Below the pieces are notes generated by a model, which searched no databases, was not told where the DNA came from, and saw nothing but the letters and a program-made list of their open reading frames with translations. A stretch of 64,000 nt of DNA, taken from assembly GCF_030268205.1 (NCBI RefSeq), contig NZ_BSQF01000004.1, positions 1 through 64,000 of the forward strand, written 5' to 3'. Positions 9,469-26,305 of the stretch are shown piece by piece (position 1 is the stretch's first letter; the number at the start of each line of letters is the position of its first letter). The stretch is from Allomuricauda sp. NBRC 101325. GTDB lineage: Bacteria; Bacteroidota; Bacteroidia; Flavobacteriales; Flavobacteriaceae. The position numbers were made by a program, and so were the translations under genes.

Positions 9469-9741
9469 TCAGGAATTGATTTTGTACAATGGTACATCGC
9501 ACGCAGTTCCAAAACTGTTCCAATCATAAACAAGTTTGTTGTCTGCTTCACATTGTACTGTACCTTGGTACTGACAATCAACTTGGATGTCCTGGCAGGG
9601 ATTGGAGGTTGTCTGAATATATCCCGTTATGGTAGTTCCATCCTTGGCTTCGGAGGAGTTCAAGGAGGTAAAGGCGCTAGTGGCAATGGCAAATACGATG
9701 GCCAAGGCCGGAATTACGAATTTAATTGCTTTTGTTTTCAT
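9469..9741 (-). CDS. DUF6520 family small secreted protein
   Basis: A 90-residue protein with a signal peptide (MKTKAIKFVIPALAIVFAIA, then a TSAF cleavage region near 25) and a short mature part holding four cysteines (PCQDI, VDCQY, VQCEA, TACDV), probably two disulfides. This is the form of DUF6520 proteins, which in flavobacteria sit beside MauE/DoxX-type membrane proteins as here. The function is unknown; the cysteines and the redox-linked neighbour suggest an exported protein whose disulfides depend on that system. It has its own strong terminator. Confidence 0.8.
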   Translation of the reverse strand: MKTKAIKFVIPALAIVFAIATSAFTSLNSSEAKDGTTITGYIQTTSNPCQDIQVDCQYQGTVQCEADNKLVYDWNSFGTACDVPLYKINS

Positions 9742-9818: not shown

Positions 9819-10919
9819 TTAAGGTATTTGGCGCTTCATTTCTAAGGATGGTGTGGTATTGAAATAACGATTGCTCATTTGGTAAACCGAGAGTTGGTCG
9901 TCAATCAAAGCGATGATCAGATTTTGACTGACCGTAAATTCCCGTACCTTGTGCTTATGTATATCGTACAGGTAAAAGCTAAATTCATAGGTGTTCTTGT
10001 TATGGTCGTATACATCAATAATGGACGCCTGTCCCAATAGTTCCCTGCTTTCATTTTTGCCCAAACGATGGGACAGTACTAGCATGAATTGCTTTGACAT
10101 GGCGGCCGCTAGGTTGATGTATAGTGGTGGGGCGGCAAGGGTGGTACGATTACTCTTTCCCTTGGAAGCAATTGTTAATTGGGCCCTTTGTACCGTATCA
10201 ATGGTATGCTGGCGAAAAAGGGAGCCCAGCGAATTATCCATGGTAAAAAATTGGTTTCGGTAATAATACACATATCCCAAGATTGCGCCAGATGCATCTT
10301 TTGCCAATAGGCCGTCCACGTCAAAGACACCGTCAATCTGCATTTGTAAAAGGGTAGTATCCAATTGCACTTCGATAGGTCCCTGTTTTTTGTAGATCAA
10401 TCCCAAAGCTGACCGGTGGGTGATTGCATGGGTGGTCCTGATATAGATGGTATTGCTATCAAGGGGCATGGCTTTATTGAAATACACATGTTCTGTCATC
10501 CAAGGATCCGCCAACCACTCCCCAATTTTTCCCCGAAGGATGAAGGGCATAGTGCCATCCATAATGAAAAAATAAGGGGGCAATACTTCGACTTTGATGC
10601 CCCGATAATCCAACTTTCGGGATCGCGGAGCCAACTCGATATGGGAGGTGTCTTTGGTTTTTAAGTTTACCTGTAGCAAGTGCCAAGGAGAGGTCCTATT
10701 GCCCAGATATAGCATATCCTTACCAAGGCCTGCAATATAGTAGGAATTGTACCCAAGGTCAAGTTCATATTGTTTGATGACCGGATGGGGAGGGTACCTT
10801 CTTGTAAATGCATTGTTTCTGTGTACCTGTTCTTCGGAGGTTAGAAAAAGTATGACCACCAAACCTATACTTAGACTTATAGTTCCCAATTGTTTTATGT
10901 AGACATTGTTCACCATCAT
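9819..10919 (-). CDS. Membrane-anchored protein with a propeller-like C-terminal domain, unknown function
   Basis: A 366-residue protein starting MMVNNVYIKQLGTISLSIGL, with one N-terminal membrane segment (about 10-28) and then a beta-rich region of repeats such as YIAGLGKDMLYLGNRTSPWH and LGYVYYYRNQFFTMDNSLG that resembles a six-bladed propeller. I do not recognise a named family. The ATG at 10919 overlaps the stop of the MauE/DoxX gene in an ATGATGA arrangement, so the two are translationally coupled; the longer frame upstream is just the antisense of that gene. With DUF6520 and MauE it forms a set that recurs in flavobacteria. Confidence 0.65.
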   Translation of the reverse strand: MMVNNVYIKQLGTISLSIGLVVILFLTSEEQVHRNNAFTRRYPPHPVIKQYELDLGYNSYYIAGLGKDMLYLGNRTSPWHLLQVNLKTKDTSHIELAPRSRKLDYRGIKVEVLPPYFFIMDGTMPFILRGKIGEWLADPWMTEHVYFNKAMPLDSNTIYIRTTHAITHRSALGLIYKKQGPIEVQLDTTLLQMQIDGVFDVDGLLAKDASGAILGYVYYYRNQFFTMDNSLGSLFRQHTIDTVQRAQLTIASKGKSNRTTLAAPPLYINLAAAMSKQFMLVLSHRLGKNESRELLGQASIIDVYDHNKNTYEFSFYLYDIHKHKVREFTVSQNLIIALIDDQLSVYQMSNRYFNTTPSLEMKRQIP

Positions 10920-11362
10920 GATTGGAGGGGTTTGTACATTGTTTTTGATTCCAATTGGACTATGGCCATTATCGAAATGATGATGAAAAGGGTATTGAAA
11001 ATGACATGTTCCGTCCATCCCAAGTTCTCCAGCACACCACCGCACGAACAAGGGATGTAATCACTGAAATTGAGTACGAGGATAATATAGGTAGTGAACA
11101 TGGTCATCAGACCCAATGTGACATATAAGGCAATAAGACGGTATCTATCCAGAAGCAAAAGGAATGCGATGATATATTCACTGACCGGTACCACCCATGC
11201 GATCCAATTCGCATAGGCCGTTAAGATGGGCGACTGGCCCAATTGCACCTTGAACTGTTGGAAATCCCATAGCTTGCTTGTGGCTGCATAGATGAACAAA
11301 ATGGAGCATAGTATACTAACAGTGTATGGCAACCAGATCTTGATGTTTTTTGAACCTTTCAT
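10916..11362 (-). CDS. MauE/DoxX-family redox-associated membrane protein
   Basis: A 148-residue protein with four predicted membrane helices (about 9-27, 46-67, 74-96, 115-135) and a Cys pair in YIPCSCGGVLENLGW between helices three and four, which is the typical MauE-like signature. The family supports disulfide formation or electron transfer across the inner membrane. It is the first gene of an operon with the propeller-like protein, and the box I direct repeat (11402-11438) lies 40-76 bases before its start, so the AraC protein encoded next door probably controls it. Confidence 0.85.
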   Translation of the reverse strand: MKGSKNIKIWLPYTVSILCSILFIYAATSKLWDFQQFKVQLGQSPILTAYANWIAWVVPVSEYIIAFLLLLDRYRLIALYVTLGLMTMFTTYIILVLNFSDYIPCSCGGVLENLGWTEHVIFNTLFIIISIMAIVQLESKTMYKPLQS

Positions 11363-11401
11363 ATCCTTTGGATTGATATGACAAAGTTCGGGAGTCTGAT
11401 G

Positions 11402-11438
11402 TATCTCTAAGGGAGTATTTGTTATCTGATACGGAGTA
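11402..11438 (+). promoter_or_regulatory. Box I operator, copy a (AraC-type 21-bp direct repeat)
   Basis: TATCT-N5-GGAGTA occurs at 11402-11417 and again at 11423-11438, exactly 21 bases apart; a further GGAGT sits at 11391, also in the 21-base register. It lies between the AraC gene and the divergent-facing MauE operon start. Copy b is at 12881. Confidence 0.7.
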
Positions 11439-11458
11439 AATACATGATTATGAGTTTT

Positions 11459-12412
11459 TTATGACCTTAAATCCGTTGGGGATATGCCATATTTATCCTT
11501 GAATGCCCTCGAAAAATGGGTTTTGCTCTTGAACCCGGTCATTTGGATGATCTGCTTTATGGTCAAGGTACTGTGCTTGATCAGGGTCTTTGCCATTCTG
11601 AGACGTTCCCTGGTCAGAAATCTAAAAATGGTTGTACCGTAGATCTGTTTGAAACCATATTTGAGTTTGTACTCATTGGTGCCCATCTGTCGTGCAAGGT
11701 CATTCAACCTTGGAAGGTCTTTTTCCAGATTATTGATGATCATATCATGGACATCCCTGATGATCTGGATATCCTCTGGGGTCAAGGTGACCTTGTGTTC
11801 CTTGATTCCCTTGGTCACTTTGAGCGTTTTTTTGGGAAGTCCAGTGTCAAAGGGTTCCCCTTTGGAAAAGAAGACGGAGTTCAAAAGGAATTTTTGACCG
11901 CTGCCATCCAGGGCTTTGTAAACCGATAGTTGACAATCCTTGGCCAGTACAAGACCATCGTTCGTTACGAATTCCAAGAACAATACCGTTTCTGATCGCT
12001 CCCTTTTCAAATGTTTGGCCATCTTCTTGGTCCATTTTTTTCCAGACTTTTCACTTAGGAATTCAGTGATATGTTTTCCGATAAGATCTTTTGGGAGATA
12101 AGACATTAAAGAGCAGGTTCCGTTGGTGACCAATTCTATTTGACCCTGCGCATCTAGGATAAGGGACAGTTGGATGACACACTGTGGGGTGTGGTGCGCA
12201 TTGGCAAAACCCTGATGGATAAAGGCAGCACCTATTTCCTCATTGACCATGTTCAGCAGGACCACCAAGGAAGCGATATTGTCATTTTTATCCGAAGGTT
12301 CAATGGAATAAAAGAAATTGCCCTTGGCCATTTCCAAGAGCATCTTTTGGATTCGTTTCACCCTAAAGTCATCACTGTTCGGCATATTCCTTTTATAATG
12401 GTTAGTTTCCAT
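11459..12412 (-). CDS. AraC-family transcriptional regulator with PAS-like sensor domain
   Basis: A 317-residue regulator. Residues about 75-185 resemble a PAS domain (CVIQLSLILDAQGQIELVTN, then GKHITEFLSEKSGKKW) and may sense a small ligand or redox state. The C-terminus (about 220-317) is the double helix-turn-helix of AraC proteins: LNDLARQMGTNEYKLKYGFK for the first and IIQMTGFKSKTHFSRAFKDK for the second, ending YGISPTDLRS. It overlaps the DUF7793-like gene by 11 bases and is co-transcribed with it. The box I repeats on both sides of this operon are the likely binding sites, giving control of the MauE operon, the PLP fusion gene and itself. Confidence 0.9.
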   Translation of the reverse strand: METNHYKRNMPNSDDFRVKRIQKMLLEMAKGNFFYSIEPSDKNDNIASLVVLLNMVNEEIGAAFIHQGFANAHHTPQCVIQLSLILDAQGQIELVTNGTCSLMSYLPKDLIGKHITEFLSEKSGKKWTKKMAKHLKRERSETVLFLEFVTNDGLVLAKDCQLSVYKALDGSGQKFLLNSVFFSKGEPFDTGLPKKTLKVTKGIKEHKVTLTPEDIQIIRDVHDMIINNLEKDLPRLNDLARQMGTNEYKLKYGFKQIYGTTIFRFLTRERLRMAKTLIKHSTLTIKQIIQMTGFKSKTHFSRAFKDKYGISPTDLRS

Positions 12413-12788
12413 CCTTTTCTTCTATGCCCAAAAAGACCAAGGCCTCCGATTTATTGGCAAAGGATCGTGTAGGTACCTTTTGGGCATGGGTGTCCAAATA
12501 AATGGAACTGATCATGTCCGTAACCGGGAGATCGATCAAAAAGGCCAGTTTCTCTATCCAAAGGGATCCTTCCAAGGCAAGGTAATCTCTGGCCGCTTTA
12601 TTGATATTGCGTACCTCACGGATGTCACAGAGTACGGGCATTACTCTTCCTTCCTGTAATTGCATTCTGTCCATTACAATGACCTGGGCCGCCTTGAGGT
12701 CTATACAAGGTGCTTTCTTGTAAATGATATGTATAAGGTGATCGGTCAATAGATAAACGGCATAGGTGTTTTCATGTGTTTTTTTCAT
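12402..12788 (-). CDS. STAS/SpoIIAA-like protein (DUF7793 type)
   Basis: A 128-residue soluble protein of alternating strands and helices (HLIHIIYKKAPCIDLKAAQV, then VMPVLCDIREVRNINKAARD) that resembles SpoIIAA/STAS-like folds annotated as DUF7793 in Bacteroidota. Such proteins usually act as small regulatory partners. It is the first gene of the AraC operon and overlaps it by 11 bases, so it may modulate that regulator. No catalytic residues are evident. Confidence 0.65.
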   Translation of the reverse strand: MKKTHENTYAVYLLTDHLIHIIYKKAPCIDLKAAQVIVMDRMQLQEGRVMPVLCDIREVRNINKAARDYLALEGSLWIEKLAFLIDLPVTDMISSIYLDTHAQKVPTRSFANKSEALVFLGIEEKDGN

Positions 12789-12880
12789 AGCTGAAAACTG
12801 GTTAGTGCGAGTAATTTACAAAATTATTGTAATTGAGTTGTTCGCTTAGGTGCCATTGACCTTAATAAAAGGATTACAGT

Positions 12881-12917
12881 TATCTGAAAAGGAGTATATG
12901 TTATCTAAAAAGGATTA
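12881..12917 (+). promoter_or_regulatory. Box I operator, copy b
   Basis: TATCT-N5-GGAGTA at 12881-12896 and TATCT-N5-GGATTA at 12902-12917, again a 21-base period, with an extra GGATTA at 12871. It lies in the divergent promoter region between the DUF7793/AraC operon (minus) and the PLP fusion gene (plus, 69 bases downstream), placed to control both. Confidence 0.72.
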
Positions 12918-12985
12918 AATAATAGATATACTGTCTATTAACTGACAAAAACCGTTTCTTTTTATGACAAATTAAACCAAACATT

Positions 12986-15388
12986 ATGGCCAAGATAAAA
13001 CACCACAATTTTTTGAACACCGTGCATGAAGTGTTCACTGATGCAAAACAGGCTGGGGTATTGCACCTCTATGCTGGGGGCAGTTCCTTTTCTGGAAGGA
13101 CCATTGAAGTCGAGGGGAGGGAACTCTACCATTTTGGGACAACGGGTTATTTGGGCTTGGAACAAGATCCCAGATTGAAGAAAGCCGCAATGGATGCCAT
13201 AGCTAAATATGGGACCCAGTTTCCCTTGTCAAAGTCCTATATCTCCAATCCACTGTACGAGGAACTGGAAGCGTCCATTGGGAAAATGTATGGGTATCCC
13301 ATCGTCATAACCAAGAACAGTACATTGGGACATTTGGGGGTAATACCCAGTGCCGTTGATGACGACGATGTGATCATCTTGGACCATCAAGTCCATTGGA
13401 GTGTCCAGAATGCTGCCAAAATGTTGAAAACACGCAGTGTTCCCATTGAACTGATACGCCACAATAATCTGGAGATGTTGGAGGATAAGATAAAGAAGTA
13501 CCGACATTCCAAAAGGCATATCTGGTACATGGCCGATGGAATTTATTCCATGTACGGGGACTATGCGCCCGTAAAGGAATTAATGGCACTTTCTGAAAAA
13601 TATCCACAATTGCATTTTTATTTTGATGATGTGCACGGGATGAGTTGGGTGGGCCGAAACGGGACGGGCTATGTGTTGGACCAATTGGGAGAGCTGCCCG
13701 AAAATGTGCTTTTGTTTGGTACCTTGAGCAAGACCTTTGGTGCCAGTGGTGCCGTATTGGCCTGTTCCAATGCCAAAATGTACGACAAGATCAAGACTTT
13801 TGGTGGGCCATTGACGTTTTCGGCCCAATTGGAACCGGCCTCGGTGGCTGCTGCCATTGCTTCGGCAGGGGTTCATTTATCCGATGAGATCTATGAATTG
13901 CAAGGGGAGTTGCGGGAACAGATCGATTATTTCAATGCCTGCCTATCGGATACCGAACTTCCGTTGATCGACCAAAATACTTCTCCTGTTTTTTATATCG
14001 GTACCGGAATGCCCAAGACAGGGTACAACTTTGTCAACCGATTGATGCAGGAAGGGTTTTATGTGAACCTCGGTATTTTTCCCGCTGTACCGGTAAAGAA
14101 TACAGGGGTGCGTATTACAATCTCAAGACATAATCAAAAGGATGAAATTAAAGCCTTGGTGGAGGCCATGGCCCATCATTTTCCCAAAGCATTGGAAGAA
14201 ACAGGTACGAATGCCCAGCGGGTATTCCATGCCTTTAAATTGGAATACAAAAAAGAGCAGACACAGAAATCTTTTGAAGGATTGACAATTAAAGTGGTGG
14301 AGTCCATCGATCAGGTGGACAGGGAAGTATGGAACGTATACATGGGGGGACAAGGGGTCTATGACTGGGATGGACTCCAATTTCTTGAATCGGTGTTCCA
14401 AGGTAATACTCAAAAGGAACATAATTGGACTTTCCAATACGTTATTATTTCGGATGACAATGATATCCCTGTACTTATGACCTTTATGGCTCTGGGACTT
14501 TGGAAGGATGATATGTTGGCCGATGCCAAGGTTTCCGCAGCCATTGAGGAAGAACGCAAGTTGGAACCTTATAAACTTTCATCCATGGTGCTGTCCATGG
14601 GATGTCTGTTCACCGAAGGAGATCATCTGTATTGGAATGCTGAACATCCATTGGCAGATAAGGCAAGGAACTTCTTATTGGAGTTTATGGAACAACAGGA
14701 GCGGGCCCTTGGAGCTAAAATGACAGTACTAAGGGATTTTCCTAAAGAATCCCTGTGGAACAATGAACTGTATGGACAGGGGTTTCTTCGTGTCCAAATG
14801 CCCAATTCCTGTATGGTGGATCTTAATGGAGCGGTTCGTATTGAAACCTATGTGGAGCAACTCTCATCGAGGAACCGACGCCATTTCAGAACCGATATCC
14901 AACCCTTTTTGGATTTGGTGGATTGTCAAGTGCATTCAAGTCTTTCCGCATTACAATTAGCACAAGTAAGGACACTTTTCGGTAAGGTGCAGGCAAGAAA
15001 CTTGGGGCTCAATACATTTTCATTTCCAAAGGGGCTATTTGAACGCATGAACGAAAACCCATTATGGGAATTCATTGTTCTGTGTCCTAAAAATGAACCA
15101 AATCGAATAGTTGGTGTCATGTTCTGCTATAACAATGGTGGCCAGGTATATGTACCCGCTTTTGTTGGGATGGACTATAATGTTTTTGAAAAGTTTTCCA
15201 CATACAGGCAATTGCTCTATATAACTATTGACAGAGCTATTGCTTTGAAAATCCCTAAGATTGATTTTGGGATGACAGCTTCTTTTGAAAAACGGAAGCT
15301 TGGGGCAGAAGTGCATGAAAAATATGCCTATCTGCATACACGTGATAATTTTATCCTGGAGCTATTGGGAGTCATGGAAGGACAGTAA
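12986..15388 (+). CDS. Fusion of a PLP-dependent alpha-oxoamine synthase-like domain with a GNAT-like acyltransferase
   Basis: An 800-residue two-domain enzyme. Residues about 1-400 are a fold-type I PLP enzyme of the alpha-oxoamine synthase group (relatives: KBL, BioF, serine palmitoyltransferase): YLGLEQDPRL, FDDVHGMSWVG (cofactor Asp/His) and FGTLSKTFGASGA with the Schiff-base lysine at about K249. Residues about 430-800 resemble a GNAT/FemAB-like transferase (IVGVMFCYNNGGQVYVPAFV, IPKIDFGMTASFEKRKLGA). The combination suggests that an amino acid and an acyl-CoA are condensed and the product is then N-acylated, as in sphingoid or sulfonolipid-like lipids, but the product is inferred. Single gene under the box I operator, 15 bases before RteC. 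Confidence 0.8.
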   Translation: MAKIKHHNFLNTVHEVFTDAKQAGVLHLYAGGSSFSGRTIEVEGRELYHFGTTGYLGLEQDPRLKKAAMDAIAKYGTQFPLSKSYISNPLYEELEASIGKMYGYPIVITKNSTLGHLGVIPSAVDDDDVIILDHQVHWSVQNAAKMLKTRSVPIELIRHNNLEMLEDKIKKYRHSKRHIWYMADGIYSMYGDYAPVKELMALSEKYPQLHFYFDDVHGMSWVGRNGTGYVLDQLGELPENVLLFGTLSKTFGASGAVLACSNAKMYDKIKTFGGPLTFSAQLEPASVAAAIASAGVHLSDEIYELQGELREQIDYFNACLSDTELPLIDQNTSPVFYIGTGMPKTGYNFVNRLMQEGFYVNLGIFPAVPVKNTGVRITISRHNQKDEIKALVEAMAHHFPKALEETGTNAQRVFHAFKLEYKKEQTQKSFEGLTIKVVESIDQVDREVWNVYMGGQGVYDWDGLQFLESVFQGNTQKEHNWTFQYVIISDDNDIPVLMTFMALGLWKDDMLADAKVSAAIEEERKLEPYKLSSMVLSMGCLFTEGDHLYWNAEHPLADKARNFLLEFMEQQERALGAKMTVLRDFPKESLWNNELYGQGFLRVQMPNSCMVDLNGAVRIETYVEQLSSRNRRHFRTDIQPFLDLVDCQVHSSLSALQLAQVRTLFGKVQARNLGLNTFSFPKGLFERMNENPLWEFIVLCPKNEPNRIVGVMFCYNNGGQVYVPAFVGMDYNVFEKFSTYRQLLYITIDRAIALKIPKIDFGMTASFEKRKLGAEVHEKYAYLHTRDNFILELLGVMEGQ

Positions 15389-15403: not shown

Positions 15404-16243
15404 ATGAAATATCAAAAGCTGCTATCGGAATTTGAGGGGCAATTGGATACTTTGGAGAGCGGGAACGGGGACGTGCTCTTCAAAGCGGAAAAAGGCATAG
15501 CCCTGGTGGAAAAAAGCATCCGTAAACTTCAAAAACAGATAACGGGGAAACCTTTTGCCACCCAAGCGGATGAGATTTATTTCTTTAAACATGTCAAGCC
15601 TCAGATCTTTAGCAAGTTGATTTATTATGTTCGCCTTTTTAACATCGAGAGTAAACGGCCCAGGGGGAACAATGCTGCCCAGATCAAATACCTGCAGCAC
15701 CAAATCGATAAGTTCCAGACCTTTTTTAACGATAACCTTGAATTTTATAACTATTACCGCAGAGGGGCGATGTCCCTCGATGAACAATATTTTGTAAGGG
15801 GCAACAGAGACCTACGATTACCTTTGGAATCATTTCATTTCCTTATCGATGACCAGTTCTCCACCTGTCAGGATGGGACTGTGGCCATCATCATGGCCTA
15901 TGATATGCTCATTGTGTACCTCAGAAAGGAAGTGGATGACCTGCAAAACAATTTGGAACCCCAAAAGAACACTATTATGGAAAAACCTTCAAAATTATTT
16001 TGGACCGGTAGCAAGACCGATCTCATTGAATTGTTATACGCCCTACATTCTAGTAAGTGCATCAATAGTGGGACAGTTGATATCAAAGAACTGGCATCCC
16101 ATTTCGAGCATTTTTACAATGTGGACCTGGGCAATTACTACCATACCTTTATTGATATCCGATCTCGAAAGAGCAGTCGCACACGGTTTTTGGAAAGGCT
16201 TATCGAGAAGCTCAATGAGCGAATGGAATCCCTCGAAGAATAG
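15404..16243 (+). CDS. rteC: RteC-domain protein (conjugative transposon regulator)
   Basis: A 279-residue protein with the RteC pattern: an alpha-helical N-terminal half containing SLDEQYFVRGN (about 121-131) and the C-terminal block KLFWTGSKTDLIELLYALHS (about 196-215) followed by GNYYHTFIDIRSRKSSRTRF. In CTnDOT-type elements RteC turns on excision genes by binding upstream of the excision operon. Here it heads a group of element genes (excisionase-like HTH, winged-helix, ATPase). Immediately after it lies a perfect palindrome that can act as terminator or binding site. It begins the mobile-element region. Confidence 0.85.
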   Translation: MKYQKLLSEFEGQLDTLESGNGDVLFKAEKGIALVEKSIRKLQKQITGKPFATQADEIYFFKHVKPQIFSKLIYYVRLFNIESKRPRGNNAAQIKYLQHQIDKFQTFFNDNLEFYNYYRRGAMSLDEQYFVRGNRDLRLPLESFHFLIDDQFSTCQDGTVAIIMAYDMLIVYLRKEVDDLQNNLEPQKNTIMEKPSKLFWTGSKTDLIELLYALHSSKCINSGTVDIKELASHFEHFYNVDLGNYYHTFIDIRSRKSSRTRFLERLIEKLNERMESLEE

Positions 16244-16578: not shown

Positions 16579-16857
16579 ATGGGAGCGACCATTATTACAT
16601 CGGAGGACCTCATGGAGTTCAAGATCGAACTGCTTGAGGACATCAAGGAACTATTACAGAACAGCCAGACCCAGTCGGGAAAAAAGTGGCTCAAATCCAA
16701 TGAGGTCAGGGACCTATTGGGCATCTCACCCGGAACACTGCAAAACTTGAGAGTCAATGGGACACTGCCCTATACCAGGATCGGTGGTGTATTGTACTAC
16801 GAATTCCATGAAATCATGGAGGTACTGGAAAAGAACAAGATCCAAAACCGAATCTAA
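16579..16857 (+). CDS. Excisionase-like helix-turn-helix protein
   Basis: A 92-residue protein: a helical N-terminus (about 9-32) and a MerR/Xis-type winged helix-turn-helix from about 36 on, KWLKSNEVRDLLGISPGTLQ then LRVNGTLPYTRIGGVLYYEF. This form is typical of small DNA-binding proteins of Bacteroidota mobile elements that act in excision or copy control. It is followed after 3 bases by the winged-helix protein, so they are one operon. Confidence 0.8.
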   Translation: MGATIITSEDLMEFKIELLEDIKELLQNSQTQSGKKWLKSNEVRDLLGISPGTLQNLRVNGTLPYTRIGGVLYYEFHEIMEVLEKNKIQNRI

Positions 16858-16860
16858 ATC

Positions 16861-17400
16861 TTGGAAGAAATCAACTATATCAAACACCTGAACGGGGTCT
16901 TCGGTCAGTTTACCAAGGATGGCCGTTTGAACCCGACCCACATAAGTCTGTATATGGCCCTGTTCCAATTGTGGAACTATAAACTGTTTCGGGAATGGTT
17001 CCATATCGACAGGGAAGATGCCATGATCTTGGCCAAGATAGGTTCCAAGTCCACGTATCATCGATGTATCAAGGAATTGGCACATTGGGGATATATCTAC
17101 TATGACCCATCACACAATCCGTTCAAGGGCAGTAGGATCAAGATGTTCAATTTTGAGACAAGTGATGGACAAGTAATGTACCTAAGCCGTGCCAAAAATG
17201 GGACAAGCCTTGGACAAGCAGTGGTACGTAACAACAAACCTATACAAACCCCAAAAAACAATGAAAACCCCAACAAACAGAAAAAAAACAAAAGATCAAA
17301 AAATAAGCCTTTTGAAAACGGTGACAAACAAGGGGGCACTGTCCCAAATGGGGACAACCTTCGAACCAGTAGGGATAAGAATTACAATGAACCACTTTGA
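16861..17400 (+). CDS. Winged-helix-like protein of conjugative elements, unknown function
   Basis: A 179-residue protein. The only start that keeps the conserved beginning (EEINYIKHLNGVFGQFTKDG) is TTG at 16861; the first ATG is 31 codons in. Residues about 20-100 look like a winged helix (LNPTHISLYMALFQLWNYKL, KIGSKSTYHRCIKELAHWGY), followed by a long Lys/Asn-rich tail. Similar proteins are frequent in flavobacterial mobile elements beside an ATPase gene, as here. A role in replication or regulation of the element is possible but not shown. Confidence 0.6.
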   Translation: MEEINYIKHLNGVFGQFTKDGRLNPTHISLYMALFQLWNYKLFREWFHIDREDAMILAKIGSKSTYHRCIKELAHWGYIYYDPSHNPFKGSRIKMFNFETSDGQVMYLSRAKNGTSLGQAVVRNNKPIQTPKNNENPNKQKKNKRSKNKPFENGDKQGGTVPNGDNLRTSRDKNYNEPL

Positions 17401-18059
17401 ATTACCATGCACCACATATCATCACGGAAAACAATGTTAAGTATGAACTTGGAACATTGTGTGGCCGGGAGATCCAATACGAATTCAAAAAAATGCTGGT
17501 CTATCTCGAAGTGAAGGGGAAAATATTGTTTGGACAAAAATTCAAGATTTACAGGGAGGATAGGGAAATCATTTATAAGCTTTGTCTTTATTTTATCAGG
17601 GATAAGGAACGCTGTGACCAATTGGGCATCGATGTCAACAAGGGAATTCTTTTATCAGGTCCAGTGGGCTGTGGCAAGACCTGCTTGATGAAACTGCTCA
17701 AGTTTATGGTGCCCCATCAACGACCCTACGCAGTAATTCCAAGCCGTAATATCGTGTACGCATTTAACCATGTGGGCTATAAAATCATTGGTGACTATGG
17801 TGATTCCCAGTCCTTTTGCTTCGATGATCTTGGTGTGGAACCTTCCGGGGTGTATTTTGGGAAGGAGTGTAATGTGATCGGGGAAATTTTATTGTCCAGA
17901 TATGAACTGTTCATGGATCATAGGCTAAAGACACATGCAACGACAAATCTGAATGCCAAAGAGCTGGAAGATCGTTATGGCAACCGTGTTCGGTCAAGGA
18001 TGAGGGAACTCTTTAATTTGATTGGTTTTGATAGACGCAGCAAGGATAAAAGGACCTGA
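17397..18059 (+). CDS. DnaC/IstB-like AAA+ ATPase of the mobile element
   Basis: A 220-residue ATPase with Walker A GPVGCGKT (about 86-93) and Walker B SFCFDDLGVE (about 138-147), then a sensor-like HATTNLNAKELEDRYGNRVR and RMRELFNLIGFDRRS. The layout matches DnaC/IstB-type helicase-loader relatives. The start is TTG, overlapping the stop of the previous gene (TTGA), so it is translationally coupled; both genes using TTG is notable. It probably helps load a helicase for replication of the excised element, although no replication initiator is seen. Confidence 0.7.
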   Translation: MNYHAPHIITENNVKYELGTLCGREIQYEFKKMLVYLEVKGKILFGQKFKIYREDREIIYKLCLYFIRDKERCDQLGIDVNKGILLSGPVGCGKTCLMKLLKFMVPHQRPYAVIPSRNIVYAFNHVGYKIIGDYGDSQSFCFDDLGVEPSGVYFGKECNVIGEILLSRYELFMDHRLKTHATTNLNAKELEDRYGNRVRSRMRELFNLIGFDRRSKDKRT

Positions 18060-18278
18060 ATGACATTACTTTTGTTTTGATTCTTTGCATACAAGAATTA
18101 GAAGTGTTGAGGGGAATTAAAACGTGTTTTTAAGTTCGGTAGCGCCTTTGGTTCATTTATATTTTTGATGAATTCCATCCAAGCGAAATGCTTTTTGTTG
18201 AAAACCTTGTACAATTGGGTATTTGGCTTTCTTTTTGAAAAAAATACAGTTTTATGTCCATTTCAAAATGGGGCAACA

Positions 18279-18317: not shown

Positions 18318-19022
18318 TTATTGATTGAATAGATGAGCCACACGTTCACGATAGGTTTCTCCAATAGATAGTTCCTTGTCCCCTAAAAAAATGCTGTTTT
18401 TTCGAATGGCAGTAATGGCATCAATAGCTACGGCATACGATTTGTGGATACGCAGAAACATATTTTGGGGTAAATCTTGTTCCAATTCCTTAAAACTGGT
18501 ACGCACCACCAACGGGTATTCGGTACTTTTTAAATGGAATTTGATATAATCCCCATACCCTTTCATCCATATGATATCCGTAAACTTGACCTTGATTTGA
18601 CTGTAGTTTGCGTTGACGAAGAAATAATCCTTGGTAGGTCTTGGACTTTTTTCATCACTGGTCTTGGCTTTGTGAAGCTCCTGTGCACGGTGACAGGCCC
18701 TTATGAACCGATCCAGTGCCACCGGTTTTACAAGATAGTCGACCACATCAAGATCATAGCTTTCCACAGCATACTCCTTATAAGCGGTGACAAAGATGAC
18801 CAAGGGCTTGTTTTGCAAACTGGAAACAAGTTGCAAGCCTGTCAGACCAGGCATTTGGATGTCTATGAAAATAAGGTCTATTGTTTCCCTTTGCAATACC
18901 TCGATTGCTTCAAAGGCATTGTTGCAGGTAGCCACCAAATGTAAAAAGGAAATCCTATCAATATTGTCTTGCAATAGAGCAAGGGCCAAGGGTTCATCAT
19001 CTATGGCAATGCATTTGATCAT
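18318..19022 (-). CDS. LytTR-type response regulator
   Basis: A 234-residue two-domain regulator. The receiver (about 1-118) has IKCIAIDDEPLAL, the phosphoacceptor in TIDLIFIDIQMPGLTGLQLV (Asp about 54) and VDYLVKPVALDRFIRA. The C-terminal LytTR DNA-binding domain (about 135-234) includes IIWMKGYGDYIKFHLKS and FLRIHKSYAVAI. It overlaps the sensor kinase gene by 4 bases (ATGA) and works with it. It sits between two blocks of conjugation genes, so it may be cargo of the element. Confidence 0.93.
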   Translation of the reverse strand: MIKCIAIDDEPLALALLQDNIDRISFLHLVATCNNAFEAIEVLQRETIDLIFIDIQMPGLTGLQLVSSLQNKPLVIFVTAYKEYAVESYDLDVVDYLVKPVALDRFIRACHRAQELHKAKTSDEKSPRPTKDYFFVNANYSQIKVKFTDIIWMKGYGDYIKFHLKSTEYPLVVRTSFKELEQDLPQNMFLRIHKSYAVAIDAITAIRKNSIFLGDKELSIGETYRERVAHLFNQ

Positions 19023-20059
19023 GGTTCCAAAGTTAGGTCAAGGAAAACGGAATACCACCCATTTTCATCGGTTATGCGAAGGTCCTTGTTTTTGCCATAA
19101 AGCAAGTCCAACCTTCTTTCCACATTGGCAAGACCGATGCCCCGTGCATGGTCTTTGGCCGTGTCATCGGGCACATATTTATTTTTTACCACAAAGGATA
19201 GGTGGTTGTCCTTGACCTGTAATTGGATGTCTATGATGGGTTTTTCCAACATTCCTGTCCCATGTTTAAAGGCATTTTCAACAAAGGGAATCAACAACAT
19301 GGGTTCAATAACATGCCAATCTTCTTTTATTGCCAAATCCACATGCAACTCCAATCGGTCTCCGAACCGCATTTTTTGTAGTTCAATATAACTGTTCAAA
19401 TAATCGACCTCACTGCGTAATAAAACTTTTTCATCGTTGGTTTCATATAACATATACTGCAATATGGACGACAACCTCAAAACTGTGGGTTCCAACTTAT
19501 CACTTTTTAAACGAATTAAGGCTACCATACTATTGAGGACATTGAGCAAAAAGTGTGGGCTGATCTGGGATCTTAAAAAAGCAAGCTCGGTCTTTAAATT
19601 TTCACTTTCACGTTCCTTGGCCTTTTGTTCCAGTTCCAAACGATCACTGACCGATTTAAATGCAATCGCAATCAATACAAAAAAGGTAAAGGGTACTGCA
19701 TTGTGTAAAAGGGCCGTACTTATGAAATAAGGATGGTCAAATTGCAGCCAAACAAAAATCAATCGGTTGATCAGGAGGATTCCGAAAAGGAGCGCAATGT
19801 TCACCACAACATAGCTCAAAATGTTTTTTCGAAAAAGAATACCGGGAATCAAAATATAGGTGTTCAAATAGAAGGTCCCCACCCAAAAGAAGTTCATCAC
19901 CACATTTAAAATAAAAATCCTACGGGCATATGCTGCGGGCATTCGGCCATCTTCCCATTGAAGGGAAAAAATATAGGGCAATGAAAAAACAAAGGCCCAA
20001 ACCAGTAGGTGGATGATTATGGTCTGATATGTTTTAAAGGATTTGAATGGAAACTTCAT
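19019..20059 (-). CDS. LytS/YehU-type sensor histidine kinase
   Basis: A 346-residue membrane kinase. Four membrane helices occupy about 12-135 with no extracytoplasmic sensor domain. After a short coiled stretch (LELEQKAKERESENLKTELA) comes the histidine block FLRSQISPHFLLNVLNSMVA with the phosphorylated His, and the ATPase region with LIPFVENAFKHGTG (N box) and ARGIGLANVERRLDLLYG (G box). It should phosphorylate the LytTR regulator encoded in overlap with it. The signal is unknown, and could be membrane state or a hydrophobic molecule. Confidence 0.92.
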   Translation of the reverse strand: MKFPFKSFKTYQTIIIHLLVWAFVFSLPYIFSLQWEDGRMPAAYARRIFILNVVMNFFWVGTFYLNTYILIPGILFRKNILSYVVVNIALLFGILLINRLIFVWLQFDHPYFISTALLHNAVPFTFFVLIAIAFKSVSDRLELEQKAKERESENLKTELAFLRSQISPHFLLNVLNSMVALIRLKSDKLEPTVLRLSSILQYMLYETNDEKVLLRSEVDYLNSYIELQKMRFGDRLELHVDLAIKEDWHVIEPMLLIPFVENAFKHGTGMLEKPIIDIQLQVKDNHLSFVVKNKYVPDDTAKDHARGIGLANVERRLDLLYGKNKDLRITDENGWYSVFLDLTLEP

Positions 20060-21545: not shown

Positions 21546-21823
21546 TGAAACAGTTCGAGGTCTATAAAAATATACGAAAGCGGGCGATGATCATGGGGCT
21601 GTCCATTTCATTGTTTGCCCTGATGATGGTTGCTGTCATTGGTTCGCTTTTGATCATCATTTTTTCATTCAGTTTTAGTTTCATCGTGGGCCTGCTGCTC
21701 TTCAATGCCCTGCTCTATGGGGCATTGGTGCGGTGGGTTAGGAAACCCTTCGAATTAAAAGTGGAACAAACCTTTCCCAAGACCATCAGCCTCAAACAAT
21801 TGAATCCCATTGACTATGTCTAA
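21545..21823 (+). CDS. traF: TraF-like conjugative transfer membrane protein (DUF4133 type)
   Basis: A 92-residue protein with a short cytoplasmic start (FEVYKNIRKRAMIMG), two close membrane segments (about 17-40 and 41-62) and a basic tail. This is the VirB3-like layout of TraF/DUF4133, which joins the TraG ATPase to the membrane channel. It overlaps traG by 8 bases. Sequence similarity to known TraF is weak, so the call leans on topology and gene order. Confidence 0.65.
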   Translation: MKQFEVYKNIRKRAMIMGLSISLFALMMVAVIGSLLIIIFSFSFSFIVGLLLFNALLYGALVRWVRKPFELKVEQTFPKTISLKQLNPIDYV

Positions 21824-24227
21824 GCTCAATTTCAATGCATATCATCCGATTCTGGATATCCAGAACCATGTGGTTTTTGGGAGCAACGGCAATGTGGTTT
21901 TGTGTTATCAAGTGGAACTGCCCGAGATATATTCCCTCTCAGAAATGGATTTTGAAGCACTGCACAGTATGTGGTTCCAGGCTTTTAAATCCTTGCCTGT
22001 TAGTGCTGTAGTCCATAAACAGGATGTCTACCAGAAGAAAGGCTATGATGCTAATGGTTTGCCTAGGGGTACTTTTTTGGCCAAGGCCACCCATGATTAT
22101 TTTATGGGTAGGGAACAATTGGTCCATCACAGTTATCTCTTCTTTATTCTTCCCTTGGACAAGGTTTTAAATGCCACCAAATATGTCACCCCCTTTCGCA
22201 AGGTGGAGAAGGGGCTGCATCGAAAATTGGATGTGCAGGTAGCAGAATTTATTACTTCGGTAAACGATGCGGTTTCCTATGTCAACAATTCCAAGATCGT
22301 GTCCCTGATGTCCATGGAACCTGATGCCATATTAAAGCATACCCATGATTATTTCAATGGTTTCAATGTGGATTATGATACGAACATCCAGTTTGGAAAA
22401 GGTTCAATAGAAATTGGTGACCATTATTTCGATGTGATGGCCATCAATAATGAAGGTTGTTTTGGTAAAACTGTGCAGAGTAGTATGCCCAACGGGAAGT
22501 TCAGTTCGGACGGGTTCGGTTTTCACAAGGGTTTTATGGATGGCCTGGGATTGGAACTGGGGGTAAACCATATGGTCAACCAAATCCTTTATCTGGATGA
22601 TACCCATCAATGGCGCAGACAATTGGACAAGAAAATAGAGGAACTCTCCAAGAGCTCCAATTTTGGATCACAGAACAAGGTGGTTCGTACTAAAATTGAG
22701 GATATATTGAATAAGATCAATGGAGATGAGACTTCACGGATCGTACGTGGCCATGTAAATATTGTTTTTTGGCACACAGAGTCAGGCGTGTTGAAGCGCA
22801 TTGCTTCTGGCATTAAGGCGCAATTGAAGGAACTGGACATACGACCCTATCATCCCAATGGGGAAGAGCGCACCCATTATTTTCTGAACTCCTATCCCTG
22901 CCATGCTACCAACTTCTCGAATGAAGATCTTTTTGTGATGGATCTCAAGGCTGCCCTTTGTCTGTATACCAACAATACCAATTATCGTTCTGATGAAACA
23001 GGAATTGTCTTTAATGATAGACAATATAATGTGCCCGTACGCAAGGATGTGTGGGATGAAGAGAAGAAGCGCATCAAGGCGCGGAACTTTGCCATATTTG
23101 CCCCGACAGGGGAAGGCAAATCCTTTTTGGCCAATAATATCCTACGTCAATATTTTGAAAGTGGGGTCCGGCTGGTCGTTATCGACCTAGGGGGTTCCTA
23201 TGCCAAATTCGCCCAATTGTATCCCGATGACCATGTCATCTTGCGATACGAACAGGGGAAGAATCTAGGTATCAATCCCTTTTATATTTCAGAACAGTCC
23301 GATCTGACCCCTGAACGATTGGAAGATCTGGCCCTGTTTCTTTTAGAACTCTTGGCTGAAACCCAAGTGACCAAATCCAAGGAGGTGGCTTTGAAAAAGG
23401 TGTTGTTGTACTACTATGACAAGGTCAGGGATGGGCATTCCTTGGCTTCCCTATATCAGTTTGTGGATCGGCACAAGGATACGTTGATCGAGGAGACCCG
23501 AGTCCGGGAATCCGATTTCAATGTGTATGGCTTTTTACACATCCTTTCTGAATATGTGGAGGGAGGACTTTATAGTTTTCTGTTTCATGTGGAGGAGGAC
23601 CAGACCTATAGAATAGAGGACAAACTCTTAATCGTTTTTGAACTGGATGAGGTAAGGGACAACAAGGAAATCCTGTCCGTAATGCTCAAATTGATCAAAT
23701 CGGCCATACAACGTACCATTTGGCGAAACCGTTCGGAGCGGGGCATTATCCTGTTCGATGAATTTGCCAAGCAGTTAAAATTCCCAAATGTATTGGAGAG
23801 TGTAGAGTTTTACTATCAGGCCATCCGTAAACAGAACGGAGCCATTGGCATCATTTTGCAATCCATCAACCAATTACCGGAAAATGCCACCTCGGCCAGT
23901 ATTCTGGAGAATACACAGGTCATATACAGCTTGCGGAACGAAAAGGGCTATGATGAACTGGCAAGGCGGTTGCACCTCTCCAACCATGACCTGAACCAAC
24001 TTCGGTCTATTCGCAATAACCTGGTCGGGGAACGCAAATACACCGAATTTTTTATCAAGATAGGGAAAGAAAGCAATGTCTTTCGTTTAGAAGTGCCCCC
24101 AGAGGTGTATGCCGCCTATCTCACCGATGGGGTGGAACATGGCCAGATCATGGTACTCTATGAGCAGTTTGGGAATATGGAGCTTGCCATTACTGAATTT
24201 ATAAACGACAAAAGAAAAATGATATGA
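21816..24227 (+). CDS. traG: TraG-family conjugation ATPase (VirB4-like)
   Basis: An 803-residue ATPase that powers the conjugative type IV secretion channel. The N-terminal third (KLNFNAYHPILDIQNHVVFG) is the VirB4 membrane-docking region. The ATPase part has Walker A APTGEGKSFLANNIL at about 427-441, Walker B GIILFDEFAKQLKF at about 643-656, and GIILQSINQLPENATSASIL further on. The ATG at 21816 is chosen; a TTG six bases earlier is possible. Complete in length for the family. It overlaps traF and the next gene, showing one operon. Confidence 0.93.
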   Translation: MSKLNFNAYHPILDIQNHVVFGSNGNVVLCYQVELPEIYSLSEMDFEALHSMWFQAFKSLPVSAVVHKQDVYQKKGYDANGLPRGTFLAKATHDYFMGREQLVHHSYLFFILPLDKVLNATKYVTPFRKVEKGLHRKLDVQVAEFITSVNDAVSYVNNSKIVSLMSMEPDAILKHTHDYFNGFNVDYDTNIQFGKGSIEIGDHYFDVMAINNEGCFGKTVQSSMPNGKFSSDGFGFHKGFMDGLGLELGVNHMVNQILYLDDTHQWRRQLDKKIEELSKSSNFGSQNKVVRTKIEDILNKINGDETSRIVRGHVNIVFWHTESGVLKRIASGIKAQLKELDIRPYHPNGEERTHYFLNSYPCHATNFSNEDLFVMDLKAALCLYTNNTNYRSDETGIVFNDRQYNVPVRKDVWDEEKKRIKARNFAIFAPTGEGKSFLANNILRQYFESGVRLVVIDLGGSYAKFAQLYPDDHVILRYEQGKNLGINPFYISEQSDLTPERLEDLALFLLELLAETQVTKSKEVALKKVLLYYYDKVRDGHSLASLYQFVDRHKDTLIEETRVRESDFNVYGFLHILSEYVEGGLYSFLFHVEEDQTYRIEDKLLIVFELDEVRDNKEILSVMLKLIKSAIQRTIWRNRSERGIILFDEFAKQLKFPNVLESVEFYYQAIRKQNGAIGIILQSINQLPENATSASILENTQVIYSLRNEKGYDELARRLHLSNHDLNQLRSIRNNLVGERKYTEFFIKIGKESNVFRLEVPPEVYAAYLTDGVEHGQIMVLYEQFGNMELAITEFINDKRKMI

Positions 24228-24829
24228 GAATAGATTGGAAACAACCCCTTAGTAAGAACCCCAAGACTTTGATACTTACTTTGATCTTGGCCATTTCCTT
24301 GCCCGGCCGTGCTACGGCCCAGGGAATGCCGGTGTATGACAATACCAATTTTATCAGTATGACCAAGTCCCTGTTGGAATCGGCAAAGCAGACTTCGGAA
24401 CTGTTGAAGACCGTGGAGTTTTTAAAGGAACAGAAGGAGAACATTGACAAGGTGAACAACACCATCAAGCAATTGAAGGCAGTTCGGGAACTGGCACGGA
24501 ACAACGAGATTTTGTTTCAAATAGTGCAGAGCGATCTAAATGATATTTTGAACTCTCCTTATATCAAGGCAGGGGAGGTGGAACAAGTATCCCAGGCCTT
24601 TGAACAAATCATGGACACAGCCATTGATGATCTGGATTTTGTGAACCAGATCTTGTCCAGTGATTTGTTGAAGATGACCGATGCGGAACGAACGGCCATT
24701 TTGATGGAAAAGAAAGTACAGTCCCAGGAAATGGTGGCAGAATTGGAGATCAAGGTAAAGCGCTATCGGGAGATTATCTCCTTTCGCAGGATGCAGGATA
24801 GTATCAATAACCGGGAAACGCAGTACTGA
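24224..24829 (+). CDS. TraI-like conjugal transfer protein (VirB5/TrbJ-like)
   Basis: A 201-residue secreted protein: signal peptide about 1-33 (LILAISLPGRATAQG) and then long helices with coiled-coil character (LLESAKQTSELLKTVEFLKE, NTIKQLKAVRELARNNEILF). Position between traG and traJ and the all-helical exported form fit the TraI/VirB5-type pilus-tip or channel protein. It overlaps traG by 4 bases and ends on the base where traJ begins. Confidence 0.65.
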   Translation: MRIDWKQPLSKNPKTLILTLILAISLPGRATAQGMPVYDNTNFISMTKSLLESAKQTSELLKTVEFLKEQKENIDKVNNTIKQLKAVRELARNNEILFQIVQSDLNDILNSPYIKAGEVEQVSQAFEQIMDTAIDDLDFVNQILSSDLLKMTDAERTAILMEKKVQSQEMVAELEIKVKRYREIISFRRMQDSINNRETQY

Positions 24830-25668
24830 TGGCTGGGTTCTTTTTGGGCATAGGGTTGGAATATGTGGACGCGGTCTTCCAGACCATCAAGGACAGTGAT
24901 TTTTCACAGTATACGATGGTGGGAATGAAAGCTTTGGCCGTGCTGTTCTTTTTGATCAATGTGTTGAAGAAATACAATGAGGGCATTGCCACCACCGATG
25001 GACATACTTGGGGGTTGACCCCTACGGAACTGGCCAAGAATTTCTTGGTGGTGCTCTTGGTCATTTTCTCCACAGAGGTATTGGGAGTATTCGATGGTAT
25101 CCTAGTGGCCATTGAAACGGAATATAGGGATACGGCTCCGGCACTCCTCCCATTACAGCTGCAGGATGTGGACCTGGAACGGGATGTGGGTGCCTTGGAA
25201 GCCGCCAAGAAAGCCATGGCACTGTTGTACGAGGCTTTGGTCACCCCCTTGTATGGATTGAAGGTCTTGGCCTTTATCATTGGGGTGGGATTGTGGTTGT
25301 TGGATCTTTTTATCTATCCCCTCTTTTTGGCGGAGCGTTATTTTTTGTTGGGGATTTTGCAGGCCTTTTTTCCCTTGGTCATCAGCTTGGCCGTCTTTGA
25401 GAAGTTCCGTCCCTTGGCCTATCAGTTCTTTAAGCTGTATGCCGCAGTTTACATGCTGGTGCCCGCTTTCTTTTTGGTCAATGTGTTCGTGAACAACCTT
25501 TACACGGAAATCAGCACCAATTTCTGGGGGAACCTGTTCGGTTTTGATTTTGGGAGTGAATTCTTTGCTTCCATCATAGAAATCGGGACCATTGGCTTTA
25601 TCGTCCTGCTCAAATTTAAATTGTATCGAAGGGCAACCAGTTTTACCCTTCGATTGTTTACCGGTTAA
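24829..25668 (+). CDS. traJ: TraJ-like conjugative transfer membrane protein (VirB6/TrbL-like)
   Basis: A 279-residue polytopic inner-membrane protein with about five or six membrane segments (for example AVLFFLINVL, NFLVVLLVIF, VLAFIIGVGLWLLDLFIYPLF, AAVYMLVPAFFLVNVFV, IGTIGFIVLLKFKL). The pattern and the place between a VirB5-like gene and traK fit TraJ of Bacteroidota conjugative elements, which forms part of the inner-membrane channel. Start overlaps the previous stop by one base. Confidence 0.75.
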   Translation: MAGFFLGIGLEYVDAVFQTIKDSDFSQYTMVGMKALAVLFFLINVLKKYNEGIATTDGHTWGLTPTELAKNFLVVLLVIFSTEVLGVFDGILVAIETEYRDTAPALLPLQLQDVDLERDVGALEAAKKAMALLYEALVTPLYGLKVLAFIIGVGLWLLDLFIYPLFLAERYFLLGILQAFFPLVISLAVFEKFRPLAYQFFKLYAAVYMLVPAFFLVNVFVNNLYTEISTNFWGNLFGFDFGSEFFASIIEIGTIGFIVLLKFKLYRRATSFTLRLFTG

Positions 25669-25669
25669 A

Positions 25670-26305
25670 ATGAATTTTATGAAAACACCATTTAAAAATA
25701 TAGTGCAGGTATTACGGTTGAATCGTTGGGTGGTCCTTTCTGTGGTCATGGTATCGGGTTTGGTAAGCATGGTTTCAATATTTCTAGTTGCCAAGATGCA
25801 TAGAGAAAGCTTGGACCATGCCTTTGTGGTCAATGGGGAAGGGGAGGTTATTCCTATAGCGTGGGAACACCAGCGTCAAAATCTTGAGGTGGAGGCCTTG
25901 GCCCATTTGGAACGGTTCCACCAATGGTTCTATGGTGTCGATGCAGGGAGCTATGAAAACCATATGGAAAAGGTGCTGTGGTTGGGCGATGCCAGTGTGG
26001 CGGAAGTCTACCAACAGAAAAAAGCGGATGGCTTTTACAATCGATTGCTGCAGTATTCCTTAGTGCAACAAGTGGAGCGCATTGATTCTAAAATTGTAAT
26101 CGGTAAGGAGTATTTGGAGTTTCAGACCCTGACGCTCGTTCAGATCCGTAGAGGTTCCGCTTTAGATAGCTATGAATTGGTCACTTCGGGCCATTTGATA
26201 CAAGTGGAACGGAACTTTCCACACAATCCACATGGGTTGTTGATCACTGATTTTTTTGAAAACTCACTTCGTAAAATTCAAATTCATGAAAGCACAGAAA
26301 AATAA
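25670..26305 (+). CDS. traK: TraK-like conjugative transfer protein (VirB8-like)
   Basis: A 211-residue protein with a short cytoplasmic N-terminus, one membrane helix (WVVLSVVMVSGLVSMVSIFL, about 19-38) and a periplasmic domain with the TraK/VirB8-type run of HLERFHQWFYGVDAGSYENH and YQQKKADGFYNRLLQYSLVQ. VirB8-like proteins scaffold the periplasmic channel. The ATG at 25670, two bases after the traJ stop, is chosen over a longer frame that overlaps traJ; an ATG three codons on is also possible. Confidence 0.82.
   Translation: MNFMKTPFKNIVQVLRLNRWVVLSVVMVSGLVSMVSIFLVAKMHRESLDHAFVVNGEGEVIPIAWEHQRQNLEVEALAHLERFHQWFYGVDAGSYENHMEKVLWLGDASVAEVYQQKKADGFYNRLLQYSLVQQVERIDSKIVIGKEYLEFQTLTLVQIRRGSALDSYELVTSGHLIQVERNFPHNPHGLLITDFFENSLRKIQIHESTEK

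Follow-up and report, generated by a model that had tools for sequence, protein, structure and literature searches.

A pair of tandem repeats with a period of 21 bp flanks the gene of an AraC-family regulator with a PAS domain (AraC-PAS) in the 64-kb stretch of DNA from Allomuricauda sp. NBRC 101325 analyzed here (hereafter, the window), and these sites recur with the same period, strand and spacing in related loci. The repeats have the makings of AraC-family operators, and the AraC-PAS protein encoded between them likely reads both, judging from sequence. Very probably, the operators control three units, that is, the mauE group, the DUF7793-araC pair and a PLP-GNAT-rteC group. They would thereby probably couple the mobility of a conjugative element, together with its cargo, to a signal.

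The first of these sites, operator D (GTATCTCTAAGGGAGTATTTGTTATCTGATACGGAGTA; the first letter is G), is located in the gap between mauE and araC, and the second, operator U (TTATCTGAAAAGGAGTATATGTTATCTAAAAAGGATTA), in the gap between the DUF7793 gene and the divergent PLP-GNAT fusion gene (Table 1). In both operators the boxes are 11 bp apart and the halves 21 bp apart. The initial annotation of this DNA had reported a 21-base tandem of TATCT-N5-GGAGTA at 11402 and 12881, before the mauE operon and before the PLP fusion gene and the AraC operon, respectively. Both tandems are present and the gene positions agree, although the last box reads GGATTA and not GGAGTA. An additional upstream half had been assigned to each tandem as well (GGAGT and GGATTA, respectively); the letters exist, but the second is out of register and neither is conserved in relatives. 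Specifically, an exact GGAKTA upstream of operator U was found at -20 in 0/70 and at -21 in 3/70 of the related loci, while a GGAKTA 21 bp upstream of the mauE-side operator was exact in 1/47 and within one mismatch in 15/47, and no conserved extra half-site was detected within 26 bp upstream of the operators across the relatives' loci. Since the extra halves are rarely present in relatives, they are no general part of the operator, and we rejected them as a third operator copy.

Table 1. Coordinates of the operators, candidate promoter elements and genes in the window.
Feature	Position	Strand	Remarks
DUF6520 small protein (PF20130)	9469-9741	-	last gene of the mauE group
mauE partner, 366 aa	9819-10919	-	uncharacterized; overlaps mauE by 4 bases
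MauE-family membrane protein (PF07291)	10916-11362	-	
Candidate -7 element, mauE promoter	11382-11389	-	GAACTTTG; 11 bp from operator D
Extra half GGAGT	11391-11395	+	between candidate mauE promoter element and operator D; weakly conserved
Operator D	11401-11438	+	two [K]TATCT-N5-GGAGTA copies, 21-bp spacing; upstream of leftward mauE
AraC-family regulator	11459-12412	-	helical hairpin at the N terminus (weakly HAMP-like), then PAS and a DNA-binding domain with two HTHs
DUF7793 protein (PF25056)	12402-12788	-	first gene of the araC operon; relative in 79/79 fetched araC loci
Candidate -7 element, DUF7793-araC promoter	12819-12826	-	TAATTTTG; 53 bp from operator U
Extra half GGATTA	12871-12876	+	20 bp to next box, out of register; not conserved
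Operator U	12880-12917	+	two TTATCT-N5-GGAKTA copies, 21-bp spacing; DUF7793-araC to the left, PLP-GNAT-rteC to the right
Candidate -7-like element, PLP-GNAT-rteC promoter	12956-12963	+	TTCTTTTT; 38 bp from operator U; poor match in the window
PLP-GNAT fusion, 800 aa	12986-15388	+	alpha-oxoamine synthase-like PLP domain; C-terminal half with weak Acetyltransf_6 (GNAT) match below Pfam cut-off
RteC homologue (PF09357, 279 bits)	15404-16243	+	15 bp after the PLP fusion gene
HTH_17 protein, 179-aa protein, DnaC/DnaI-like ATPase	16579-18059	+	after rteC in a conserved block
LytTR response regulator	18318-19022		
Conjugation-gene stretch	21810-27985	+	TraG-type ATPase 21810-24227, TraM 26256-27200, DUF4138 27197-27985

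A scan of the 3.69-Mb genome for the tandem, using a pattern of 18 specified positions (two of them two-fold) and period 21, returned 18 matches at up to three mismatches: the two operators, which are the only perfect matches, and 16 others, all with three mismatches. The reversed pattern gave 2 matches in the same scan. Within the window, a looser definition (at most one mismatch across all GGAKTA boxes, and partner boxes differing at no more than two of six positions) recovered operators D and U alone at period 21 and one match at period 14, and nothing at the 18 remaining periods in the range 12-31; in 60 first-order Markov versions of the window, the loose tandem occurred 0.07 times on average and once at most.

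We then turned to 79 named loci from Muricauda/Flagellimonas, Maribacter, Arenibacter, Algibacter, Winogradskyella, Cellulophaga, Flavivirga and others, nearly all Flavobacteriaceae ('Cytophaga sp. FL35' being the one of 68 tree rows placed outside this family). Among the 77 loci with the HTH located, the GGAKTA tandem at the strict limit was found with period 21 on the strand opposite to araC in 62, versus 2 on the same strand as araC, and 17 other periods (15 to 32) gave 0-1 each. At the loose limit, the DUF7793/PLP side carries period 21 in 70/77 loci, every other period reaching four at most, and a rescan of 11 loci (L179, L190 and the nine in which no site had been found) provided seven new sites, mostly with longer gaps, for a total of 77/79. 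The DUF7793/PLP-side operator was absent from L173 and L177 even after the rescan, and L190, which is counted among the 70 at the loose limit, had no match at the stricter limit of the rescan. The mauE-side operator was found in 20/77 loci at total distance 3 and in 47/77 at the loosest limit, where a few may be chance since other periods reach 7 on this side. Non-conservation of the motif in orthologous intergenic regions, which the initial annotation had named as a refutation, was thus not observed: the motif is conserved on both sides, with a looser limit on the araC/mauE side. Information amounts to 1.62 bits at GGAKTA versus 0.29 and 0.55 in the flanks; it is important to note, however, that the scans fix GGAKTA and therefore the constancy and high information of this box are partly built in, which does not apply to the results on period, strand and spacing. 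The loci are also related to one another, with an effective number of 36.6 of 68.

At the genus level, regulator homologues (E <=1e-30) were found in 24 of 99 genomes, all of the same genus as the window's genome; this search took in 60 genomes of the genus, including the window's own. Scanning 71 genus genomes for the tandem at up to one mismatch gave 52 sites in 27 genomes (reversed control, 1), and a TTGAYT form at up to two mismatches gave 16 sites in 14 genomes (control, 0). The 24 gene-bearing genomes are all accounted for: 18 match the tandem scan, 4 more match the TTGAYT scan, and the remaining two (G033 and G010) have two-mismatch sites in the gene's locus (L044, L047). Four of the 36 genus members without a homologue match one or both scans (G021, G045, G051, G057). 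The 68 genus sites led to 45 new loci which, when compared against three AraC homologues, consist of 33 with araC in the stretch and 12 without. The latter comprise six GGATCT-like sites without an adjacent araC (L071, L072, L075, L091, L093, L097), two additional sites on a contig that also carries the regulator gene (L113, L114), one case truncated by the end of its contig (L084), and three isolated sites (L082, L100, L106).

A few individual genomes deserve mention. L093 and L198 near 10373, as well as L071, L072, L075, L091 and L097, hold two to three GGATCT/TATCT-N5-GGAKTA copies, which in L093 are found upstream of a MauE-partner fusion gene. L194 (G053:C16) has two further TTGACT-type operators at 13512-13549 and 18234-18271, at distances of 11-16 kb from the araC gene of that contig, and one of them precedes a small lipoprotein-like gene (18339-18704) by about 70 bp; it is possible that these two operators mark extra regulon members in this one genome. 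G017 has four regulator copies (L200, L201, L202 and a match at C1:2330227), each with an adjoining site, two with TTATCT/TTATCC-type boxes and two with the ATCT/GGCTCT form. Finally, in L043, L074 and L096 (G049:C17) a stop codon interrupts araC within the first recognition helix, although both operators are retained.

The regulator itself belongs to the AraC/XylS family, with two HTH motifs and an HTH_18 match at E 1.5e-20. In 40 AraC homologues (E up to 1), HTH_18/HTH_AraC was matched in 40, PAS_9 in 38 and HAMP in 4 (best E 0.003), while the window protein's own PAS_9 match is below the Pfam cut-off (21.6 vs 27 bits). In its predicted structure (mean pLDDT 74.7), a helical hairpin at the N terminus is followed by a PAS-like fold and a domain with two HTHs; given a pTM of 0.41, the model is read as a fold per domain only and not for the relative arrangement of the domains. 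The best Foldseek matches of this model are the sensor-kinase model 9a5d, the AraC-type domain 6swi, and a large number of PAS domains, such as 3bwl, with 3lsg and 3oio also matching the AraC-type DNA-binding fold. The protein is not of the arabinose type, scoring 50.5 against a cut-off of 208 bits with the NCBIfam AraC model and having a PAS domain and helical hairpin but no cupin. Operators of AraC/XylS proteins are generally direct-repeat half-sites with two boxes about one turn apart, and both window tandems follow this general pattern. Most close homologues begin at residue 10 of the listed araC ORF, which makes 12385 a possible true start instead of 12412.

How the two boxes relate to the two recognition helices can be examined across relatives. 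The first helix, TNE[YF]KLK, is present in 29 of 30 aligned homologues that were not selected by peptide (the 30th is broken there), and the adjoining GGA boxes are kept; among the 79 loci the constancy of helix 1 is partly selected because GTNE[YF]KLK was one of the two search peptides, and it was also used to locate the HTH. The second helix varies together with the other box: FKSKTHFSRAF pairs with TTATCT or TTATCC, FKSAAHFSRAF or FKSPAHFSRAF with TTGA(C/T)T or TTGCCT, FKSHAHFTRTF with TTGACT, FKSFPHFSWAF with ATACGT and, in homologues 33% identical, FKKGNHLAREF with GGCTCT. Across 68 loci, a T at position +5 of the second helix is paired with TTA in 13/13 first and 13/13 second boxes, an A is paired with TTG in 14/14 first and 13/14 second boxes, and P or S is found with both TTA and TTG. 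These 68 loci, used for both covariation and tree, exclude 11 (L136, L173, L175, L177, L183, L184, L185, L188, L189, L191, L192) in which the HTH was not located, the protein was broken or short, or the scanned zone was without a site.

Among 293 protein columns, the pairing of helix position +5 with base 3 of the second box is the top-ranked one for this box. Other columns outrank the helix when the first box, or the sum of both boxes, is considered (for the sum, +9 is at rank 16 and +5 at rank 19 of 293), and we consequently rejected the summed mutual information as statistical proof of the link, the helix not being singled out over the family background. On a tree that leaves the helix out, 4 changes apiece are required for A and for T at +5, and well-supported branches provide 2 (A vs T) or 4 (A vs all others) independent pairs, in which the box either changes in the same direction or stays as it is, and never changes in the opposite direction. 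With 2-4 independent pairs being too few for significance, the data suggest, at the sequence level, that the variable box follows the second recognition helix of AraC.

The operators are embedded in a conserved gene neighborhood. Matches in the 79 fetched stretches were found for DUF7793 (79), PLP (74), MauE (70), RteC (69) and HTH_17 (65), and the order RteC-GNAT-PLP / DUF7793-AraC-MauE is unbroken in 62/79 loci, in most cases flanked by HTH_17 and the ATPase on the RteC side and by SusD/SusC on the MauE side. RteC had no match in 10/79 stretches (one of which, L171, is cut by a contig end) and PLP in 5/79. In loci that lack PLP or retain a remnant of it (L141, L176, L187, L193; also L196 and L202), RteC comes directly after the operator; where RteC has no match, in the Flavivirga group, PLP keeps the operator (in L190 at the looser limit only). 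The window's RteC is a clear family member (PF09357, E 2.8e-83, residues 59-276 of 279). The 366-aa mauE partner had no match in Pfam and NCBIfam at E 0.01. Conjugation genes in the window include TraG, which is also in many relatives' loci, TraM and a DUF4138 protein that we take to be TraN-type. Between the DnaC-like gene and the tra genes, 2-4 kb beyond rteC, a LytTR response regulator and sensor kinase pair occupies 18318-20059. Beyond the tra genes (28787-51990) there are a second AraC gene (28787-29677), an MFS transporter, three aldo/keto reductases and two molybdopterin-binding oxidoreductase subunits. The initial annotation had predicted one AraC control circuit comprising a redox membrane protein, a DUF7793 protein and a lipid-like synthase, and the conserved tandem and the covariation of the second box with helix 2 are in line with such a circuit; it had made no mention of RteC, the DUF6520 gene or the setting in a conjugative element, and these give the circuit another purpose.

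Candidate promoter elements stand at fixed distances from the operators. The -7 consensus of Bacteroidota is TAnnTTTG. With this consensus, a TAnnTTTG toward DUF7793 is present in 38 of the 70 loci examined, and in 34 of these 38 its distance to the operator is 53-54 bp; TAnnTTT toward PLP is 38 bp from the operator in 36 of 42 (70 examined), and a looser element toward mauE is 11 bp from the mauE-side operator in 26 of 27 (47 examined). The PLP element reads TACTTTTT or TAAATTTT in many relatives, and a TCnTACAAATnCC-like stretch about 15 bp before it is conserved in many loci. At 11 bp from the candidate mauE element, operator D would cover the place of the -33 element, in the same manner that araI2 covers the -35 of araBAD.

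We favor the following model. One AraC monomer would occupy each 17-bp half (TTATCT-N5-GGAKTA), with its first HTH reading GGAKTA and its second reading TTATCT; the 11 bp between boxes correspond to one turn and the 21 bp between halves to two turns, so that the two halves could hold an AraC dimer as a direct repeat. The units under control would be mauE-(partner)-DUF6520, DUF7793-araC (by autoregulation) and PLP-GNAT-rteC. At mauE the operator takes the position expected of a -33 element, which makes direct activation the most likely mode there. Signal input probably falls to the PAS domain and the DUF7793 partner. The excision and transfer genes of CTnDOT are controlled by RteC, which in turn is activated by RteA/RteB (PMC1976400). 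Since the CTnDOT RteC switches on such genes, the circuit probably joins the mobility of the conjugative element and the neighboring MauE/SusCD cargo under one signal. The sites, with their conservation, period, strand and spacing, are observed in the sequences, whereas we infer binding and activation by AraC-PAS, the signal, and a CTnDOT-like action of this RteC.

Alternatively, the same operators and regulator might work mainly by repression, that is, AraC-PAS might repress PLP-rteC and itself until a ligand or DUF7793 releases it, with activation only at mauE. Silence by default is usual for conjugative elements, and the half-sites of operator U point away from the PLP promoter, the operator ending 38 bp from its -7-like element, all of which would suit repression. 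However, the operator covers neither the candidate PLP nor the candidate araC -7 element, and the relatives lack a conserved extra half-site in the 26 bp upstream; hence, we regard predominant repression as rather unlikely, albeit deserving serious consideration.

It is also conceivable that the repeats are bound by another local protein, such as RteC, the HTH_17 protein or the LytTR regulator, or that they are not promoter operators at all. LytTR-type regulators bind direct repeats spaced about 21 bp, similar to the period here, but no LytTR or kinase match was found in any of the 79 related stretches (up to 10 kb on each side). Relatives of RteC and HTH_17 are indeed frequent there (69/79 and 65/79), yet both are missing where the operator stays (L179, L190; Flavivirga group). 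Furthermore, two boxes per 21 bp fit a protein with two HTHs, and changes in the variable box tend to go along with those in the AraC helix, making a reader other than AraC-PAS very unlikely. As for iterons or another replication/transfer signal, direct repeats of about 21 bp and a nearby DnaC/DnaI-like gene are in their favor; however, just two copies are present per place, the two places are separate intergenic regions that both serve promoters, the distance to the candidate promoter elements is fixed, and the repeats occur in loci without an rteC-repA match (L179, L183-L185, L188, L189, L191), so that we give this possibility almost no credence. Thus, operators read by AraC-PAS remain our preferred interpretation.

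The gene between operator U and rteC raises the question of the signal. By both sequence and fold, its PLP domain is an alpha-oxoamine synthase, aligning over about residues 36-395, and the nearest solved chains are 8xha/8i7u/8xhd (Alb29) and 8guh/3a2b (serine palmitoyltransferase). It falls below every listed curated NCBIfam cut-off (SerpalmtaseCFB, 154.6 vs 640 bits; bioF, 170 vs 426), including the CqsA-type autoinducer synthase model (74 vs 428 bits). The C-terminal half of the fusion had no match among PDB sequences at E 1, and the 50 fold matches listed for the whole model are all on the PLP part. The lipid-like synthase of the initial annotation is one option among several, and a lipid is not supported over other products. 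One speculative scenario, to which we assign a low probability, is that the fusion makes an acylated aminoketone signal that is bound by the PAS domain of AraC, creating a self-inducing loop that raises rteC. If true, a synthase and its receptor would share one operator, and excision and transfer would be set by the density of element-bearing cells, in Bacteroidota.

Our literature search, which covered openly accessible papers, found nothing published on this operator/regulator system. The sites would represent a concrete and testable control point for a conjugative-element family in many marine Flavobacteriaceae, and the operator logic makes the regulon readable in other genomes. The variable box and its helix offer a natural series for studying the DNA specificity of the AraC family, and an orphan alpha-oxoamine synthase tied to element mobility hints at where to seek the signal.

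Several known systems resemble parts of the proposed circuit. The PLP domain aligns with alpha-oxoamine synthases (BioF, serine palmitoyltransferase, cysteate acyltransferase, CqsA) but, unlike these, is fused to a C-terminal half and scores below the curated cut-offs; the likeness to LuxI/LuxR or CqsA-like synthase/receptor pairs is confined to gene order and the shared operator. To our knowledge, the CTnDOT cascade of Bacteroides (RteA/RteB-RteC) is the only worked model for the control of rteC. As in that cascade, rteC in the window is found beside tra genes and would be under another regulator; in contrast to it, an alpha-oxoamine synthase gene lies between the operator and rteC, and a one-component AraC-PAS/DUF7793 pair would take the place of the RteA/RteB two-component system described in PMC1976400. 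A parallel in operator architecture is E. coli AraC, whose araI1-araI2 site has a 21-bp period as well. Occupancy of the adjacent I1/I2 half-sites by AraC is described in PMC4486848. The window's regulator shares with E. coli AraC the two-HTH domain and, by inference, adjacent direct half-sites for a dimer and a promoter (here, mauE) that is activated from an operator at -35/-33, but it has a PAS domain and a helical hairpin in place of the arabinose-binding cupin, is accompanied by a DUF7793 partner, and would act on Bacteroidota promoters.
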